Positions 4,896 to 53,142 of a stretch of 64,000 nucleotides of DNA are shown piece by piece. The stretch comes from Bradyrhizobium sediminis. Its GTDB lineage: Bacteria > Pseudomonadota > Alphaproteobacteria > Rhizobiales > Xanthobacteraceae. The notes beneath the pieces are model-generated. The model worked only from the letters and a program-made list of their open reading frames with translations, was not told the origin of the DNA and made no database searches. Position 1 is the stretch's first letter; each line of letters starts with the position of its first letter. The stretch is from NCBI RefSeq assembly GCF_018736105.1, contig NZ_CP076135.1, positions 1,424,001 through 1,488,000 on the forward strand, in the 5' to 3' direction. The translations under genes and the position numbers were made by a program.

Positions 4896-5253
4896 CGCCG
4901 ATCGAACAGTTTCAGGGGCTCAGGGATGCACCTTTTTTCAGCATGCCGTCCCTAAGGCCCGAGCATCGCGAATACACCTGCCGGGGACGTCAGGCATTGA
5001 TGAAGGTCAATGACGGGCGGGATGCCCGGACATGGAGTGAGTGTTGGGAACCGGCGCCAAGGTTCAAGCGATCATGCGCATAGTGTAGGCAAAGCCACAT
5101 GGTCGCGCGCCCGCCGGCGAATTCCGTGCGGCCATCACAGTGCGGACACACGAATGCGCTTTGCCGATCCAGCCCATCGGCTACACTTGCCAAAACGCGA
5201 CTCAATCTGCGTCGTCGGCGCCTGCCTGACAAAATCCCAAGGAGACCGTCCCC
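4896..5253. other. Intergenic stretch without a convincing gene
   Basis: About 360 bp between the stem-loop and the secreted-protein gene at 5254. It holds a FixK/FNR-like palindrome TTGATGAAGGTCAA at 4997-5010, too far (about 250 bp) from the next start to be a clear promoter element. A minus-strand frame 4990-5232 is open but has no family features or ribosome-binding site. Confidence 0.4.
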
Positions 5254-17214: not shown

Positions 17215-17228
17215 TTGATCTCAATCAA
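17215..17228. promoter_or_regulatory. FixK/FNR box upstream of napEDABC
   Basis: TTGATCTCAATCAA is a perfect palindrome of the TTGAT-N4-ATCAA type bound by FNR/FixK2 proteins. Its centre is about 95 bp upstream of the napE ATG, leaving room for a start site about 41 bp downstream of the centre. In Bradyrhizobium the nap operon is known to be activated by FixK2 under low oxygen, which fits exactly. It lies in the divergent region shared with the monooxygenase gene at 17374. Confidence 0.85.
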
Positions 17229-17373: not shown

Positions 17374-18579
17374 ATGAAATTCGGCATCTTCTATGAGCTG
17401 CAATTGCCGCGCCCGTGGCAAGCCGGCGACGAACTCAGGCTCTACCAGGACGCGCTGACGCAGCTGGAGACCGCCGACCGGCTCGGCTACGACCATGCCT
17501 GGGTGGTCGAACATCATTTCCTCGAAGAATATTCGCATTCGCCGTCGCCGGAATCGTTTCTCGCCGCCGCCTCCCAGCGCACCAGGAACATCCGGCTCGG
17601 CCACGGCATCTTCCAGCTCACCACCAATCATCCCGCGCGCGTCGCCGAACGCGTCGCGGTGCTCGACCTCCTCAGCAACGGCCGCGTCGAATTCGGCATG
17701 GGCGAGAGCGCCTCGATCACCGAACTGACACCGTTCGGCCGCGACATGGAGACCAAGAAGGAAGTGTTCGAGGAGGCCGTCCGCGCCATCTTCCCGATGT
17801 TCAGGGACGGCGGCAGCGAGCATCACGGCAAGTATTTCGACATTCCCTTGCGCAACGTGGTGCCCAAACCCGTTCAGAAGCCGCACCCGCCATTGTGGAT
17901 GGCGTGTTCGCAGTTGCCGACCATCGAGCGCGCCGGCCAGAATGGATTCGGCGCGCTCGGCTTCCAGTTCGTCAGCGCCGACGCCGCGCACGCCTGGGTG
18001 CACGCCTATTACAACGCGATCACCAAGCGGCTGAAGAAGCTCGCCGATTACGAGATAAATCCGAACATGGCGCTGGTGTCGTTCTTCATGTGCGCGAAAA
18101 CCGACGAGGAGGCCCGTGCGCGCGCCGACGGCGCCACCTTCTTCCAGTTTGCGCTGCGCTTTTATGGCGTGTCGCAGAACCGGCAGCGCCCCGATCCCGG
18201 CACCGTCAACATGTGGGACGAATACAACAAGTGGAAGCGCGACAATCCGGAAGCGCAGGAGGCGGCATTGCGCGGCGGCCTGATCGGATCGCCCGAAACT
18301 CTCCGGAAGAAACTGCGCCGGTTCCGCAGCTCGCACATCGACCAGGTGATCCTGCTCAACCAGGCCGGCAAGAACAGCCACGAGCACATCTGCGAATCCC
18401 TCGAATTGTTCGCCCGCGAAGTGATGCCGGAATTCCGCGAAGATCCCGAGCACGACGCCTGGAAGAAAGGCGTGATGAGCGGCGCGATCCAACTCGAGGA
18501 GATCGACACCGAAGCGTTCAAGGACCGCTACGGCAAGCTGGCCGTGAACGTCGCCAAGCCGGCCACGGCGGCGGGCTGA
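17374..18579 (+). CDS. LLM-class flavin-dependent oxidoreductase (luciferase-like)
   Basis: A 401-residue TIM-barrel monooxygenase of the bacterial luciferase family, using reduced FMN supplied by a separate reductase. Typical blocks: MKFGIFYELQLPRPW, WVVEHHFLEEYSHSPSPESFL, RNIRLGHGIFQLTTNHPARVAERVAVLDLLSNGRVEFGMGES and GSPETLRKKLRRF. Substrate unknown. It is close to the sulfonate region, where such enzymes (SsuD, SfnG, DszA) are common, but it is a separate subgroup of the family. Divergent from nap. Confidence 0.93.
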   Translation: MKFGIFYELQLPRPWQAGDELRLYQDALTQLETADRLGYDHAWVVEHHFLEEYSHSPSPESFLAAASQRTRNIRLGHGIFQLTTNHPARVAERVAVLDLLSNGRVEFGMGESASITELTPFGRDMETKKEVFEEAVRAIFPMFRDGGSEHHGKYFDIPLRNVVPKPVQKPHPPLWMACSQLPTIERAGQNGFGALGFQFVSADAAHAWVHAYYNAITKRLKKLADYEINPNMALVSFFMCAKTDEEARARADGATFFQFALRFYGVSQNRQRPDPGTVNMWDEYNKWKRDNPEAQEAALRGGLIGSPETLRKKLRRFRSSHIDQVILLNQAGKNSHEHICESLELFAREVMPEFREDPEHDAWKKGVMSGAIQLEEIDTEAFKDRYGKLAVNVAKPATAAG

Positions 18580-42539: not shown

Positions 42540-42616
42540 GGCGAGGTAGCTCAGCTGGTTAGAGCACGGGAATCATAATCCTGGGGTCGGGGGTTCGAGT
42601 CCCTCTCTCGCTACCA
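42540..42616 (+). tRNA. tRNA with CAT anticodon (probably elongator tRNA-Met)
   Basis: 77 nt with encoded CCA. Acceptor GGCGAGG pairs with TCTCGCT (two G-U pairs), D-arm TAGCTCAGCTGGTTAGAGCA, anticodon stem CGGGA/TCCTG with loop ATCATAA (anticodon CAT), variable GGGTC, T-arm GGGGG-TTCGAGT-CCCTC. Discriminator A. CAT can be elongator Met or lysidine-modified Ile2; the overall body resembles alphaproteobacterial elongator tRNA-Met, but the gene alone does not settle it. No rRNA nearby. Confidence 0.95.
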
Positions 42617-42651: not shown

Positions 42652-42984
42652 CTATTTCCCGCTGCTGTCGATATAAGCCGACCAGGCCGCCGTGGCCAGG
42701 ATCCGCGATGGCTTGCCCTTGCAGGCCGCCTCGACGGCGGCGATCATCGTGGCATCATTGGCTTTCGACTGGTCTTGCTGGCTCGATACGGCCACGTAAT
42801 TGAGGCCGCTCCAGAAACCGTAAATCCACACCGTACCTTCCTGCCTGTGGTCCCGGCTCGAGAGCCAGTAGGCGCATGTGCGGCCGCCGATGCCGGCCAG
42901 ATCCACTGAAGCCTCCTCCGCCGATGCAGCGCCGGCGGCCATGACGAGTGACAGCAGGACGAAGAGTGAATTTCGCATCGGCAT
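42652..42984 (-). CDS. Small secreted protein
   Basis: A 110-residue protein with a Sec signal peptide (MPMRNSLFVLLSLVMAAGAA, SAEE) and a mature domain holding two cysteines: TCAYWLSSRDHRQEGTVWIY, GFWSGLNYVAVSSQQ and ATMIAAVEAACKGKPSRILATAAWSAY. The Cys pair probably forms a disulfide. General shape resembles small periplasmic proteins with an aromatic helix bundle, but no family is named. ATG 42984 has AAGAAG upstream; ATG 42978 is an alternative. Divergent from the large cysteine-repeat gene. Confidence 0.75.
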   Translation of the reverse strand: MPMRNSLFVLLSLVMAAGAASAEEASVDLAGIGGRTCAYWLSSRDHRQEGTVWIYGFWSGLNYVAVSSQQDQSKANDATMIAAVEAACKGKPSRILATAAWSAYIDSSGK

Positions 42985-43136
42985 CCAATTCTTCTTTCTT
43001 GCCAGGATAATCGCCGCTGTTTGGCATCCTCGGCAACACCAATCTCGTGATGATGCGATGGTTGTCGGGGAGGAGTGGCCGGGTGACGCCGCACAACATG
43101 CCGCGCTTTTGACGCAATTTGAAACGTCGCGCCGGT

Positions 43137-43150
43137 TGATCCCGATCAAA
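43137..43150. promoter_or_regulatory. FixK/FNR box upstream of the cysteine-repeat protein
   Basis: TTGATCCCGATCAA, a perfect TTGAT-N4-ATCAA palindrome. Its centre is 64 bp upstream of the ATG at 43208; a start site 41.5 bp from the centre (about 43185) would put TATCAAAC at the -10 position and leave a 5' leader with the AAGGA site. This is the layout of a class II FNR/FixK2-activated promoter. Confidence 0.75.
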
Positions 43151-43207
43151 CTAATTTTCCGGCATCAGTATCAAACTAAATTTTCAGTTGCCTTGAAGGA
43201 TTCATCC

Positions 43208-46129
43208 ATGCGCGCAAATGCGATTTCCTCGGTAGGGCGGCAAGGCAATTACTCCAACATAAGTCACCTGGCGACCGCGGCTGTCGCAGTTGTCCTGGCG
43301 GTGCTGTCTTCCGTCGGTGTAGCCTTTGCGCAGGTATCGCCGCCAACCGGCATCGTCGCCAACGGCAATGCGGTGGTGACCGGCTTCTCCGGCGCGCTGC
43401 CGCCGGCCAGCATCGCGCCGGGCGTCGATCCCGCCGACAAGACTTTCATCGATCTGCAAGGGCCGGCCGCGCGCGTTTTCGATCTGCAGGCGCCGGGCGC
43501 GCCGCCGCAGGCGCAATTGCTTACGGCGCCGAAGCCTTTCACCGTGACCGCAGGTCAGATCGGCCAGGTGTTCGGCGTTGCGCTCGACAACGCAACGCAG
43601 CCCAATATCTTCGTCGCGGCGACCTCGGCCTATGGGCTGCCGATCGTTGTCCCCGCAGGTGCCGGTCAACCGGTTCGCGTCAAGCAGGGCGGGCCCAACG
43701 CCGCCTTCATGCCGGGCCTTTTCGGACCGTCGCAGCTCGGCGGCGGCCCCGGTTCGATCTGGCGGATCGATGGCACGACCGGCGAGGTTCGTCTGTTCGC
43801 CAATGTGACGCTCGATGGCGCTGCCAATCCCGGGCCGGCGCTCGGCGGCCTCGCTTTCGATTCCGTCTCGAACACGTTGTTCGTCGCCGACCGCGCGACC
43901 GGAATGATCCACGCTTTTGATCCCACCGGAAAGGAACGCGGCCGCTACGATCACGGTGTCCAGGGGCGCGGTGCGGCCGGTCTGCCGCCTGTGGCCTATG
44001 ATCCCGCCAGCCGTCTCGACATCTCGAGCCCGAAATTCCGCACCGGCGATCCCGGCACCTGGGGCTATACCGCTTCGCCGCGGTTGATCTTCGGTCTCGG
44101 CGTTCGCAACGGGCGTCTCTATTATGCCGTCGCCAGGGACCTGCAGATCTGGTCGGTGGCGATCGCGCCGGATTTCGGCGGCGATCCGCGCCTCGAACTC
44201 AGCGTCGCGCCCGGACCGGGGCCGAGCGAAATTTCCAGGATCACCTTCGACGATCAGGGCCGCATGCTGCTCGCCGAGCGCGCGGCTCCCAGCGGCGCCG
44301 CCGACTTCACGGCGCTAACCATGGAAGCGACCGGTCGCGTGCTGCGCTATCTGCCGGCACCTCCCGGCACAGTCGGGCCGCAATGGCAGGAGCAGTCCGA
44401 CGAATATGCAATCGGTTTCGCGCGGCAGATGCGCAACGGCAATGGCGGCGTTGCCGTCGGTTTCGGTTACGACGAACTGGGCCGTATCGACCGCGCCGCC
44501 TGCGGCCAATTTCTTTGGTCGACCGGCGAACAACTGCGCAATGCCGTCGATCCCGCGCTCGCCGCGCTGCTCGCCCAAGGCGGCCCGGCTGACGTGAACG
44601 GCCTGCAAGGCAATGAGATTACCGCGGTCGTGCCGGCCAACACGCCGCCGCTGCAAAGCTACTTTGCCGATTACGACGACCAATTCCAGGACCCCGGCGC
44701 GCGCGGTCTCATCGGCGACATCGCGATCTTGCGCGTCTGCGGTCAGGCCGGCTTCATGCTGCCGGGCTGGTACCGGCCGCGGGTCGAGCTGCTGCCGGGA
44801 TTCTTCTGGTATCGGATGCACGGCAAGAAGCCGCCGAAGCTCGATTGCCCGCCCGGCTCCGGCAATCAGTGCGCCTGTCCGCCCGGCACGACACAACAGC
44901 CCGGATTCCAGTGCTGCCCGATAGGATTCTTTCCTGGCCCGAACGGGCAGTGCCAGTCGCCATGCCCGGACGGATCGACCGACCCCGGCCATGTCGAGGC
45001 GTGCTGGTCAGGCTTTGACCCCAGCACATTCGATCCCAACGACCTGACCAAGTTGACCTGTCTGGATGGCACCAAGGCGGTCCACGATGCCAATGGCTAT
45101 CATTGCCCGGCGTTCAAGATGCCGGTCTGTCCGGTTGGATACGAGCCGGATCCATCCAGCGCGCACGGCTGCAAGCCGACGGCTGCGGGGAAGGCTTGTT
45201 CGCAGCCCGGTCCCAATATGATCCAGCCTGGGCTCGACGGAAGTTGCCTGCAGCTCTGTCCGAGCGGATCCGCGGCTTTCTACGCCAATCAGTGCTGCCC
45301 TGACGGCACGCTGCCCGGCCCCGACGGCAAGTGCGACAAGCCAAAGCTGCCAGGCTGTCCGCCCGGCCAGTTGTCGTCGAAAGGCATTTGCTGTGAGCCG
45401 GGGTCCAAGCCGCAGCCCGACGGCAGTTGCTTCCCGATGAAGAAGCCATGTCCGCCCGAGCAGCTGTCGTCGAACGGCACCTGCTGCCCGGCCGGCACGA
45501 CACCGCAGCCGGATGGCAGCTGCGGCCCGCTGAAGAAGATATGTCCGCCCGAGCAACTGTCGTCGAGCGGTCAATGCTGCCCGTCCGGCACCAAGCCGCA
45601 GTCAGACGGCAGCTGCGGTCAGCTGGCGGGTTGCCCGCCTGGCACGACCACCAATGCGCTTACCGGCGAGTGCTGTCTGCCGCCGAGCGCGGTAGCCGGC
45701 ACCGCCGCCGCGTGCAGCTGTCCGCAAGGGCAATTCCTTGTCGACGGGAAATGCGTCACCAATGCCGCGCCGGTCACGCAACCGGGCGCCTGCTTCACCG
45801 GCTATGTCAAACTGCCGAACGGCTCATGCTGCCTCGCGGCCCAGGCGACGGCAGGCGGGCAGTGCTGCCCGTCCGGACAGAAGCCTGATGCCGACAAGCG
45901 GAAATGCGTGCCCGGAGGTCCGGCATTCGTGCCCGGCGGCATTCATGTTCCCGCGCCGGTCATCCTGCCGCGCGGCAAACGAGGCGGCCGGGAGTTTGTC
46001 CCGCCACCGCCGCGGATCGTGGTGCGGCCGCCGCCGAAGCGGTTCGTCCCGCCGAAGCGCTTTGTACCGAAGCCGATAGTTCGGCCGGCTCCAATCGCGC
46101 CACGCTTCCGCCAACAATTCGATCGGTGA
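43208..46129 (+). CDS. Large secreted protein: beta-propeller-like domain plus cysteine-rich repeats
   Basis: A 973-residue exported protein. Signal peptide about 1-41 (ATAAVAVVLAVLSSVGVAFA). Residues ~45-545 resemble an NHL/propeller-type domain (GLAFDSVSNTLFVADRATGM, IHAFDPTGKERG, ISRITFDDQGRMLLAER). Residues ~547-905 are Cys-rich: at ~716, ~747 and ~778 a 31-residue unit recurs (CPPxQLSSxGxCCxxGxxPQ, then PDGSC), flanked by diverged copies. The last ~65 residues are basic and Pro-rich (PPPRIVVRPPPKRFVPPK). AAGGA precedes the ATG. No catalytic motif seen. Probably a cell-surface or matrix protein; the architecture is not one I can name. Operon with the next gene. Confidence 0.85.
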   Translation: MRANAISSVGRQGNYSNISHLATAAVAVVLAVLSSVGVAFAQVSPPTGIVANGNAVVTGFSGALPPASIAPGVDPADKTFIDLQGPAARVFDLQAPGAPPQAQLLTAPKPFTVTAGQIGQVFGVALDNATQPNIFVAATSAYGLPIVVPAGAGQPVRVKQGGPNAAFMPGLFGPSQLGGGPGSIWRIDGTTGEVRLFANVTLDGAANPGPALGGLAFDSVSNTLFVADRATGMIHAFDPTGKERGRYDHGVQGRGAAGLPPVAYDPASRLDISSPKFRTGDPGTWGYTASPRLIFGLGVRNGRLYYAVARDLQIWSVAIAPDFGGDPRLELSVAPGPGPSEISRITFDDQGRMLLAERAAPSGAADFTALTMEATGRVLRYLPAPPGTVGPQWQEQSDEYAIGFARQMRNGNGGVAVGFGYDELGRIDRAACGQFLWSTGEQLRNAVDPALAALLAQGGPADVNGLQGNEITAVVPANTPPLQSYFADYDDQFQDPGARGLIGDIAILRVCGQAGFMLPGWYRPRVELLPGFFWYRMHGKKPPKLDCPPGSGNQCACPPGTTQQPGFQCCPIGFFPGPNGQCQSPCPDGSTDPGHVEACWSGFDPSTFDPNDLTKLTCLDGTKAVHDANGYHCPAFKMPVCPVGYEPDPSSAHGCKPTAAGKACSQPGPNMIQPGLDGSCLQLCPSGSAAFYANQCCPDGTLPGPDGKCDKPKLPGCPPGQLSSKGICCEPGSKPQPDGSCFPMKKPCPPEQLSSNGTCCPAGTTPQPDGSCGPLKKICPPEQLSSSGQCCPSGTKPQSDGSCGQLAGCPPGTTTNALTGECCLPPSAVAGTAAACSCPQGQFLVDGKCVTNAAPVTQPGACFTGYVKLPNGSCCLAAQATAGGQCCPSGQKPDADKRKCVPGGPAFVPGGIHVPAPVILPRGKRGGREFVPPPPRIVVRPPPKRFVPPKRFVPKPIVRPAPIAPRFRQQFDR

Positions 46130-46152
46130 TTTCAGTTCTGTCAGGAGGATCC

Positions 46153-46500
46153 ATGATGCGAGAAAAATTCACGTCGGCGATCATCGCGAAGCGATCAGCT
46201 CTTGCGATGGCAGGTCTTGTTCTCGCTGCCACGATAGGTGTCGCCAGCGCGAGCACCTCGACGGGATCGGCCGGCAACTCGACCTGGTTCAGCGTGCAAC
46301 CGTCCGTCAGGCTCGCTGAAGCGGAGGTGACGACCAAGAAGAATGTGAAGAAGCCGAAGGTGCGAGGATCAGGAAAGACCTGGCTCAATCCGCAGCCCGA
46401 ACCGCCCATGGGCCCCGCCAAGGTCGATAAGGGCGGAACCTGGTTGAACCCGCAGCCGGAGCCGCCGCGGCCGGTCACGGGCAGTAAGAAATTGAACTAG
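46153..46500 (+). CDS. Small secreted protein with duplicated TWLNPQPEPP motif
   Basis: A 115-residue protein. N-terminal signal peptide (RSALAMAGLVLAATIGVASA), then a basic linker (TTKKNVKKPKVRGSGK) and two copies of TWLNPQPEPP (about 79-88 and 98-107) separated by MGPAKVDKGG. The ATG at 46153 has a perfect AGGAGG site and follows the large cysteine-repeat gene by 23 bp, so they are co-transcribed. Pro/Trp repeats suggest a binding ligand for a protein surface or polysaccharide. Family not recognised. Confidence 0.75.
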   Translation: MMREKFTSAIIAKRSALAMAGLVLAATIGVASASTSTGSAGNSTWFSVQPSVRLAEAEVTTKKNVKKPKVRGSGKTWLNPQPEPPMGPAKVDKGGTWLNPQPEPPRPVTGSKKLN

Positions 46501-46520
46501 CTTCGCGCGCCGATGCGCAC

Positions 46521-46775
46521 TCAGTTGTTTGCCCCGGGTGTCTTGTTGGGCTTCACCGTCGGCACATTCTTCTTGTGAATCTCCGCCTTGCCGCCCCACG
46601 TCGGACTGCCGGGCGGGTTCACACAGCGGCAGGGCATCGGGACCGCTGACGGACGATCCTTCGGCGGCGGCTGGCATTCCCGCACCATCGGAAATGGGCA
46701 GGGCGCCGCCGATGCCGATTGAACAGACGGCAACAGGGCGACCGCGGCCAGCGCGAAAGCAAGTGTCATGCGCAT
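46521..46775 (-). CDS. Small secreted cysteine-containing protein
   Basis: An 84-residue protein with a signal peptide (MTLAFALAAVALLPSVQSAS, AA) and a short Pro-rich mature part with four cysteines (APCPFPMVRECQPPPKDRPS, MPCRCVNPPGSPTWGGKAE). GAGGG lies before ATG 46775. It converges on the WLNPQPEPP gene, with only 20 bp between the stops. Together with its own FixK-type box it mirrors the operon on the other strand. Confidence 0.7.
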   Translation of the reverse strand: MRMTLAFALAAVALLPSVQSASAAPCPFPMVRECQPPPKDRPSAVPMPCRCVNPPGSPTWGGKAEIHKKNVPTVKPNKTPGANN

Positions 46776-46836
46776 CGTTGAACCCTCAAACTCTTGTGCC
46801 CCGCGTTTATTCATATGCCTGCGCCGTCGCCCAACA

Positions 46837-46850
46837 TTGATGTGAGTCAA
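46837..46850. promoter_or_regulatory. FixK/FNR-type box upstream of the small cysteine protein
   Basis: TTGATGTGAGTCAA (TTGA-N6-TCAA). The centre is 68 bp upstream of the ATG at 46775 on the minus strand. A start 41.5 bp away falls near 46802, with TATGAAT at the -10 position. Good class II geometry. It could alternatively serve the plus-strand oxidoreductase gene at 47065, but the distance (about 220 bp) is less favourable. Confidence 0.65.
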
Positions 46851-51518: not shown

Positions 51519-53075
51519 TCAGGTCATCGCTTCGATCAGGCGCGGCCCTCTGTGCTTCATCGCCGACTCATACTGCGCGGCGAATTCCTCCGCCGTGGTG
51601 GCGCGGCTGGCTTCGATACCGAGGCCGTCGGCGATCTTGGTCCAGTTCATTTCCGGATTGTGCAGGTCCATCATCGCCAGCGCATTGGCACCGGGCGTGC
51701 CGGCGCCGACGCGCTGCAGTTCGTAATTGAGGATCGCATAGGAGCGGTTGGCGTAGATCACGACCGTGATGTCGAGATTTTCGCGCGCCATGGTCCATAG
51801 CGCCTGCATGGTGTAGGCGGCGCCGCCGTCGCCGTGCGGGCAGACCACCTTGCGGCCGGGCGCGGCCAGCGCCGCGCCGACCGCGAGCGGCAGGCCGAGG
51901 CCGATCGAGCCGCCGGTCAGCGGCAAATGGGTGTGGGGCCGGGCGCGCGCCAGCGTCATCAACAGCGGCAGGCTCGCGGTGTTGGACTCGTCGGCGATGA
52001 TCGCGTGGTCCGGCGTCAGGTGGGCGATGACCTGCGCCACGGTGTAGGAGTTGAGCCGGCCTTTCGGCAGGTCGGGCAGCTGCAGTTCGGTGTAGAGCGC
52101 AGGCCTGGCGGGCGCGCCGAGCGCATCGGCGAGATCTTGCAGGGCTCCGGCGCCGTCCTCATGCGGGTGGGCGAGATGGAAGAGCTCGCAGCCCTCGGGC
52201 ACGCACCAGCTCGGCTTGCCGGGATAGGCGAAGAACGATACCGGCGGCTTGCTGCCGACCAGGATGATCTGCTCGGTGCCGGCGAGAAACGCCGTGATCT
52301 GCTCGCCGAAATAAGGAATCCGCTCCACCGTCACCCGGCCGGCGCCCGGCTCGGAATGCGGCGCGAAGTTGTCGCATATCAGCCGCACGCCGGTCTTGGC
52401 GTGAACTCGCCCGGCCGCCTCGAGCCCGTCGCCGATCAGGGCCTTGCCGCGCAACAGCATGGCGGTCTTCTTGCCGTTCGACAGCAGCTTTGCGATCGCC
52501 TCGACGGTATCGGCGCTGACCTTGGCAGGCCCGATATCCGGCAAGGGTGGCGCGGCGCGATCGGCCGGATTCCAGGCGGTGTCGGCGGGCAGGATCAGCG
52601 TGGCGACGCCACCCGGCGCGGCACGCGCGGCCTGTACCGCCCGCGCCGTATCGGCGGCGACGGTCTTGGCGCTCCTGGATTCGTGGATCCAGCTCGAGAC
52701 CGGGCGGGCAAAGCCGACGATGTCGGACGTCAGCGGCGCATCGTATTGCAGATGATAGGTCGCATGATCGCCGACGATATTGACGACCGGCGTCGCGGCG
52801 CGGCGGGCATTGTGCAGATTGGCAAGGCCATTGGCCAGTCCGGGCCCGAGATGCATCAGGGTCGCGGCCGGTTTGCCGGCGATGCGGCCGTAGCCATCGG
52901 CAGCGCCGGTCGCGACGCCCTCGAACAGGCAAAGCACCGGACGCAATTCCGTGACGGAATCGAGCGCGGCAACGAAGTGCATTTCCGAAGTGCCGGGATT
53001 GGCGAAACAGATATCGACACCGCAACCGACCAGGGTTTTCACCAGCGATTGCGCGCCGTTCATTGGATTGTCCAT
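51519..53075 (-). CDS. Thiamine-diphosphate enzyme (acetolactate synthase/benzoylformate decarboxylase-like)
   Basis: A 518-residue ThDP enzyme. N-terminal PYR domain with ANPGTSEMHFVAALD and LFEGVATGAADGYGRIAGKP (catalytic Glu). Central domain around KKTAMLLRGKALIGDGLEAA. C-terminal PP domain with the ThDP motif HGDGGAAYTMQALWTMAREN and LDITVVIYANRSYAILNYEL. It groups with the acetolactate-synthase-like proteins of unknown substrate (MdlC side) rather than IlvB; no small subunit is nearby. A FixK-type box lies 60 bp upstream. Confidence 0.92.
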   Translation of the reverse strand: MDNPMNGAQSLVKTLVGCGVDICFANPGTSEMHFVAALDSVTELRPVLCLFEGVATGAADGYGRIAGKPAATLMHLGPGLANGLANLHNARRAATPVVNIVGDHATYHLQYDAPLTSDIVGFARPVSSWIHESRSAKTVAADTARAVQAARAAPGGVATLILPADTAWNPADRAAPPLPDIGPAKVSADTVEAIAKLLSNGKKTAMLLRGKALIGDGLEAAGRVHAKTGVRLICDNFAPHSEPGAGRVTVERIPYFGEQITAFLAGTEQIILVGSKPPVSFFAYPGKPSWCVPEGCELFHLAHPHEDGAGALQDLADALGAPARPALYTELQLPDLPKGRLNSYTVAQVIAHLTPDHAIIADESNTASLPLLMTLARARPHTHLPLTGGSIGLGLPLAVGAALAAPGRKVVCPHGDGGAAYTMQALWTMARENLDITVVIYANRSYAILNYELQRVGAGTPGANALAMMDLHNPEMNWTKIADGLGIEASRATTAEEFAAQYESAMKHRGPRLIEAMT

Positions 53076-53128: not shown

Positions 53129-53142
53129 TTGATGTGAATCAA
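53129..53142. promoter_or_regulatory. FixK/FNR box upstream of the ThDP enzyme operon
   Basis: TTGATGTGAATCAA, a perfect TTGAT-N4-ATCAA palindrome. Its centre is 60 bp upstream of the ATG at 53075 on the minus strand; a start 41.5 bp away is near 53094 with CATAGC as a weak -10. Suggests activation of the ThDP enzyme and the FAD dehydrogenase at low oxygen. Confidence 0.7.

Follow-up and report, generated by a model that had tools for sequence, protein, structure and literature searches.

A conserved block of exported-looking protein genes bounded by two inward-facing FixK-type boxes in Bradyrhizobium sediminis

Three genes lie between two FixK/FNR-type boxes

A 64,000-nucleotide stretch of the Bradyrhizobium sediminis genome (contig NZ_CP076135.1, positions 1,424,001 to 1,488,000 of the forward strand; hereafter the window) carries three genes for exported-looking proteins, here called BIG, WLNP and CYS, which lie between two inward-facing boxes of the FixK/FNR type. 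By comparing this locus with its counterparts in other Bradyrhizobium genomes, we found that the boxes and genes stay together, even at a second chromosomal site, and we propose that they form a low-oxygen envelope module activated by FixK2. The features of the block are listed below, with positions counted within the window and distances in base pairs (bp).

43102-46850, no strand: conserved block, defined by homology to the differently placed block of genome G283 (43102-46777) and then the right box
43136-43149, plus strand: left FixK/FNR-type box, TTGATCCCGATCAA, facing BIG, with its centre 65.5 bp from the BIG ATG (43208)
43208-46129, plus strand: BIG, 973 amino acids (aa), with an N-terminal hydrophobic stretch, a beta-propeller, Cys-rich repeats and a Pro/Arg-rich tail
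46153-46500, plus strand: WLNP, 115 aa, downstream of BIG, with an N-terminal hydrophobic stretch and two WLNPQPEPP motifs
46521-46775, minus strand: CYS, 84 aa, convergent on WLNP, with an N-terminal hydrophobic stretch and four invariant Cys
46837-46850, minus strand: right FixK/FNR-type box, TTGATGTGAGTCAA (TTGACTCACATCAA on the CYS strand), with its centre 68.5 bp from the CYS ATG (46775)

Both boxes are perfect TTGA-N6-TCAA sequences and fit the FixK2 consensus TTGA/C-N6-T/GCAA. An initial annotation of the window had already recognized them, with the left box placed one base off (43137-43150), and had put them about 64-68 bp from the start codons. It had also seen a plausible -10 element at the class II distance on each side; this holds for CYS, where a -10-like TATGAA follows the right box at about 21 nucleotides (nt), but on the BIG side the element is weak. 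The gene content that it described (a propeller/cysteine-repeat giant, a WLNPQPEPP-repeat protein and a small Cys protein) is what we read between the boxes, the WLNP and CYS stop codons are indeed 20 bp apart, and respiration genes are absent from the block.

Boxes of this kind are more frequent than chance would give. The window holds five perfect boxes, and 22 boxes with at most one mismatch against 10.3 expected, a number reached by none of 100 shuffles (maximum 20). In the whole genome, a single contig of 5.45 Mb, we counted 156 perfect boxes, compared with 18 for the reversed pattern.

Boxes and genes are conserved together across Bradyrhizobium

We surveyed 265 Bradyrhizobium genomes, in which loci were picked by protein homology and not by the box; at most 3 candidates for BIG and 20 for CYS were scored per genome, so absences are not certain. 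BIG had matches at E<=1e-30 in 22 genomes and close orthologues (at least 70% identity) in 12, CYS was found in 13, and 14 genomes carried a close BIG orthologue, CYS or both. The BIG protein of genome G179 is 96% identical to that of the window. Among named carriers in the protein database are B. nitroreducens TSA1 and B. zhengyangense for BIG and B. sediminis for WLNP, which has 43 homologues there.

A perfect box precedes CYS in all 13 loci, at 65.5-94.5 bp (the 82.5 bp of G064 being taken from the printed frame), and precedes BIG in 11 of the 12 orthologues, at 65.5-70.5 bp from the start that matches the conserved N-terminus. In 10 of the 10 loci printed, a TA-containing -10-like hexamer lies 21-22 nt past the CYS box. 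The sequences flanking the boxes have diverged, with a median ungapped pairwise identity of 32% on both sides. Because perfect boxes served as the anchor for the BIG-side rows, the invariance of their box columns arises by construction, and the evidence consists of flank identity and locus counts; this column count covers 12 of the 14 loci, without G128, whose proximal box has one mismatch, and without G063, which lacks both BIG and its box. In the 15 block stretches listed, the space between the outer promoter boxes holds no perfect box.

The initial annotation had named orthologous loci lacking both boxes, or with the three genes scattered, as grounds for refuting its reading; the loci compared here do not refute it. 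The number of genes varies: CYS occurs in one to four tandem copies, the block lacks BIG in two genomes, and in 7 genomes a fourth gene, which we call CYSL, lies to the left of the block and diverges from it. In 7/7 genomes the centre of a perfect box lies 59.5 bp from where the CYSL match starts, and the CYSL products of G064 and G302 show the AEIHKKNVPTVKP motif that is also present in the CYS tail. The coding patterns for WLNPQPEP and EIHKKNVP are confined to this locus in 6/6 genomes tested.

The block behaves as one unit at two chromosomal sites

In 11 genomes (G283, G282, G125, G302, G064, G312, G128, G016, G030, G063 and G274, with the G030 block split over two contigs), the block lies beside a DUF350 gene, between a glutathionylspermidine-synthase-like gene (GSS, PF03738) and a gene that we take to be DUF1190-like from gene order, Pfam having given no match. 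GSS is present in 246 of the 265 genomes, and we read 29 of these loci; 3 had the block and 26 did not. All 26 block-less junctions measure 6-89 bp and have no perfect box in the surrounding 4.2 kb. The genome of the window (G000) and G179 also have this junction empty, at 13 bp and with no box; in G000 it is found at about 1.251 Mb, some 216 kb from the block. In these two genomes the block, with both boxes, is flanked instead by genes for a secreted protein and a GMC oxidoreductase. DNA homology between G000 and G283 starts 34 bp to the left of the left box (43102) and ends at 46777. In G285, the last of the 14 genomes, the contig with the left box breaks off inside BIG, so that the CYS side lies beyond it, and there is no GSS match. 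Since boxes and genes are kept at both sites while empty junctions are boxless, box, genes and box behave as one unit. The following features adjoin the block in the window.

42540-42616: tRNA-Met gene, 0.5 kb left of the block
42655-42984, divergent from BIG: short secreted-looking gene, start 158.5 bp from the left box
47065 (start): GMC oxidoreductase gene, start 221.5 bp from the right box

The distances of these two protein genes from the boxes are not impossible for a promoter, and the divergent gene could share the left box with BIG. That the boxes serve these flanking genes and bracket the three others by accident is highly improbable, and we reject it, because the neighbours change while the boxes do not: these neighbours occur at just two of the block loci read, those of G000 and G179, and elsewhere the boxes stay with BIG/WLNP and CYS. 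Moreover, no perfect box accompanies the left-neighbour relatives in the four loci read (L217-L220; about 65% identity). We also sought an empty second site through left-neighbour relatives, which occur in 38 of the 265 genomes; the same four loci did not reveal one, as none has the G000 gene order, and in L219 and L220 a GMC-oxidoreductase match of 40-41% lies on the opposite side of the relative.

A change of site raises the question of whether the block derives from a mobile element, as its remnant or its cargo, the conservation of the block then reflecting mobility more than host function. Two chromosomal locations, a patchy presence (CYS in 13/265 genomes) and the nearby tRNA-Met gene, a possible landing spot that comes with no repeat evidence, all fit such an origin, which we nevertheless consider quite unlikely. 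No recombinase gene lies between the boxes, and in the repeat lists (20 of 24 direct families and 20 inverted pairs) no repeats of at least 14 nt pair the ends of the block, which speaks against an insertion sequence or integrative element; plasmid carriage of CYS was rejected, as CYS had no match in the plasmid collection searched. In addition, BIG and GSS diverge in step (r = 0.79, 55 pairs from 11 carriers), as vertical descent predicts, so that old vertical descent with many losses and one site change fits better than frequent transfer. The natural site change separates the block from its surroundings.

FixK2 is the likeliest regulator

The genome encodes a FixK2 orthologue (L167:1492-2178, minus strand) that matches the FixK2 structure 4i2o with an E value of 3.9e-126 and has an identical recognition helix, RRDIGDYLGLTLETVSRALSQLH. 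Just before this helix it has a Cys where 4i2o has a Ser at position 183; the crystallised protein is the C183S form, according to PMC9104804. A FixJ-like gene adjoins the orthologue, with a match under the model cut-off because the open reading frame (ORF) read is partial. The ccoN match of this genome, at 1814725, is preceded at 0.3 kb by a perfect box. PMC9104804 gives TTGA/C-N6-T/GCAA as the FixK2 box and describes targets with boxes at positions such as -66, -69 and -72. Dense clusters of perfect boxes were also seen in G000 at about 2.22-2.25 Mb and 2.76-2.79 Mb (L161, L162), among others near genes for nicotinate phosphoribosyltransferase, Lon and FtsH; these clusters are probably the core of the FixK/FNR regulon.

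Sixteen matches of the CRP/FNR-type helix-turn-helix (HTH) family exceed the cut-off in this genome, which leaves room for a different regulator of this family. The boxes might then be real and mainly bound by FixK1, NnrR or an FNR-type protein, with nitric oxide or redox state rather than microoxia via FixK2 as the signal. We regard this as unlikely, since both boxes are symmetric TTGA..TCAA sequences inside the FixK2 consensus, and among the published denitrification promoters compared, those of norC, norE, nirK, nnrR and others depart from it with TTGC or TTGT half-sites, although this gives no clean divide. From sequence comparison, FixK2 is the likeliest regulator, and other candidates exist. 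The regulatory half of the earlier interpretation is well supported, because boxes and genes stay together at near-fixed distances, even when relocated, and a FixK2 orthologue with an identical helix is encoded; the interpretation as a whole is partly supported, its labels "low-oxygen" and "cell-surface or extracellular" describing roles that the genes may have.

Predicted products and a paralogous operon

The propeller fold of BIG (model residues about 48-511) is supported by an AlphaFold2 model and by the VIA-align structure list; the predicted local distance difference test (pLDDT) score is mostly 70-95 over residues 50-360, with a dip at 95-106, and is low across much of 398-551. Its closest known counterparts are the YWTD (six-bladed) and NHL propeller domains. 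BIG has 44 Cys in total and three 93-nt DNA repeats, and contains no CXXCH haem motif. CYS has a highly conserved tail, GGKAEIHKKNVPTVKPNKxPG. None of BIG, WLNP and CYS matches a Pfam family at E<=1 or a curated NCBIfam family, where the one line obtained, for WLNP at E 0.065, falls far under its cut-off. A profile search among PDB sequences gave BIG only matches at E 0.32 and 0.4. UniRef names a WLNP homologue (P0177) "DUF680 domain-containing", yet Pfam gave WLNP no family at that threshold.

A 25-nt inverted repeat (80%; 46335-46359 and 46551-46575) links the coding DNA of WLNP and CYS, because both encode a KKNV-type stretch. Between 42600 and 47200 we found 5 intrinsic terminators against 4.2 expected, none of them within the 20-bp convergent gap. 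A more distant BIG paralogue (46%) occurs in the genome of the window at about 2.361 Mb (L052), with a DUF11 match and no perfect box within 5 kb.

A BIG paralogue, BIG2, forms an operon of the order box-CYSA-BIG2-DsbA in G063, G062, G064, G016 and G167 (L048, L049, L050, L051 and L113). A perfect box lies about 69-81 bp ahead of one or two Cys-rich CYSA genes, and the DsbA-like gene belongs to PF01323. The operon is like the block in its paralogous propeller protein, Cys-rich partner and perfect box, but it runs in a single direction, includes a DsbA-like gene and has neither WLNP nor CYS. It links the BIG family to disulfide chemistry.

Elsewhere in the window, further perfect boxes lie at 4997-5010 and at 17215-17228, the latter 152.5 bp ahead of a 401-aa ORF starting at 17374. 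Another, TTGATGTGAATCAA at 53129-53142, is centred 60.5 bp ahead of a minus-strand gene (51519-53075) with an acetolactate-synthase-like product (NCBIfam NF005760), and a box of the same sequence is also found in G179 (L097).

Discussion

The closest known system is the FixK2 regulon of Bradyrhizobium diazoefficiens (PMC9104804, PMC6710368), which, in the parts of these papers compared, has the same box sequence and box-gene distance, and the FixK2 orthologue here likewise lies beside FixJ. What sets the block apart is that its products look exported and match nothing in Pfam or curated NCBIfam, and that its genes remain with their two boxes at both sites; no such block appears in the compared parts of the B. 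diazoefficiens FixK2 target tables. The chromosomal row that hosts it in 11 genomes resembles the PspA-associated operons of DUF350, DUF1190 and glutathionylspermidine-synthase-like genes (PMC11237479); this row is distinct from the block in being boxless wherever the block is absent (26/26 loci read), and the passages of PMC11237479 on these operons do not mention the block. YWTD/NHL propellers in the structure list (nidogen, LRP6, the LDL receptor and TRIM71) share only 10-17% identity with BIG, which is bacterial and has no Pfam match, and a common propeller fold shows no function. A search of the open-licence literature gave no description of the block or its protein families, and the motif strings had no match. 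One paper (PMC10708946) reportedly treats a free-living relative from lake sediment. FixK2 regulons are well known, and the block with its BIG, WLNP, CYS and CYSL families is apparently undescribed in that literature.

According to the above analysis, we propose that the block is a FixK2-activated, disulfide-rich envelope module, self-contained under two inward-facing FixK2-type promoters, a reading to which we give a probability of about 0.72. When oxygen falls, FixLJ would raise FixK2, which would bind both boxes at an activating distance and switch on both promoters. BIG would then be exported as a propeller protein whose long repeat tail would be rich in disulfides; WLNP would be a small exported protein with proline motifs; and CYS would contribute one to four small exported proteins, each with four cysteines and the AEIHKKNVPTVKP tail. 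Together they may form a low-oxygen, disulfide-linked envelope or extracellular layer or a binding complex. BIG would be the scaffold or receptor of this assembly, and its partners would be the small tagged proteins.

Several observations weigh against this proposal. The -10 element on the BIG side is poor, CYS is present only patchily, and 16 CRP/FNR-type candidates share the genome with FixK2. G128 is an exception to the box rule: the box 54.5 bp before its BIG has one mismatch, and the perfect one lies farther upstream, at 174.5 bp. Two genomes, G063 and G274, keep WLNP and CYS in the block but lack BIG there. In G063, WLNP is preceded by a box at 59.5 bp; G274 (L105) retains two boxes ahead of WLNP, of which the nearer is 220.5 bp away. 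In G274, the BIG box plus the apparent start of the BIG leader remain in front of WLNP. The complete boxed operon was found in only 5 of the 16 same-genus BIG2-type loci examined; 3 more (G288 and two in G197) have weaker or partial CYSA and DsbA matches and no perfect box, 3 (G006, G179 and G226) have a perfect box with an incomplete gene set, and 5 have neither. Finally, the export signals of BIG, WLNP and CYS were judged by eye, and the proposed regulation is argued from comparative evidence.

LRP6-type propellers read short peptides, and by analogy with them the BIG propeller might read the CYS tail. We may extend the model, tentatively and with more doubt than conviction, to a portable low-oxygen surface module bounded by its own FixK2 boxes, in which the BIG propeller would recognise the AEIHKKNVPTVKP tags of CYS and CYSL and the WLNPQPEPP tags of WLNP, so assembling an extracellular layer held together by disulfides, and the second FixK-boxed operon would supply a paralogous scaffold with its own DsbA.

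FixK2 regulons are mostly read as circuits of respiration, denitrification, stress and symbiosis. The conserved, FixK-boxed set of exported-looking, disulfide-rich proteins described here suggests remodelling of the cell surface as a further response to low oxygen, and such proteins would need disulfide formation while oxygen is scarce. The block offers testable promoters and four protein families, BIG, WLNP, CYS and CYSL, that have no Pfam annotation.

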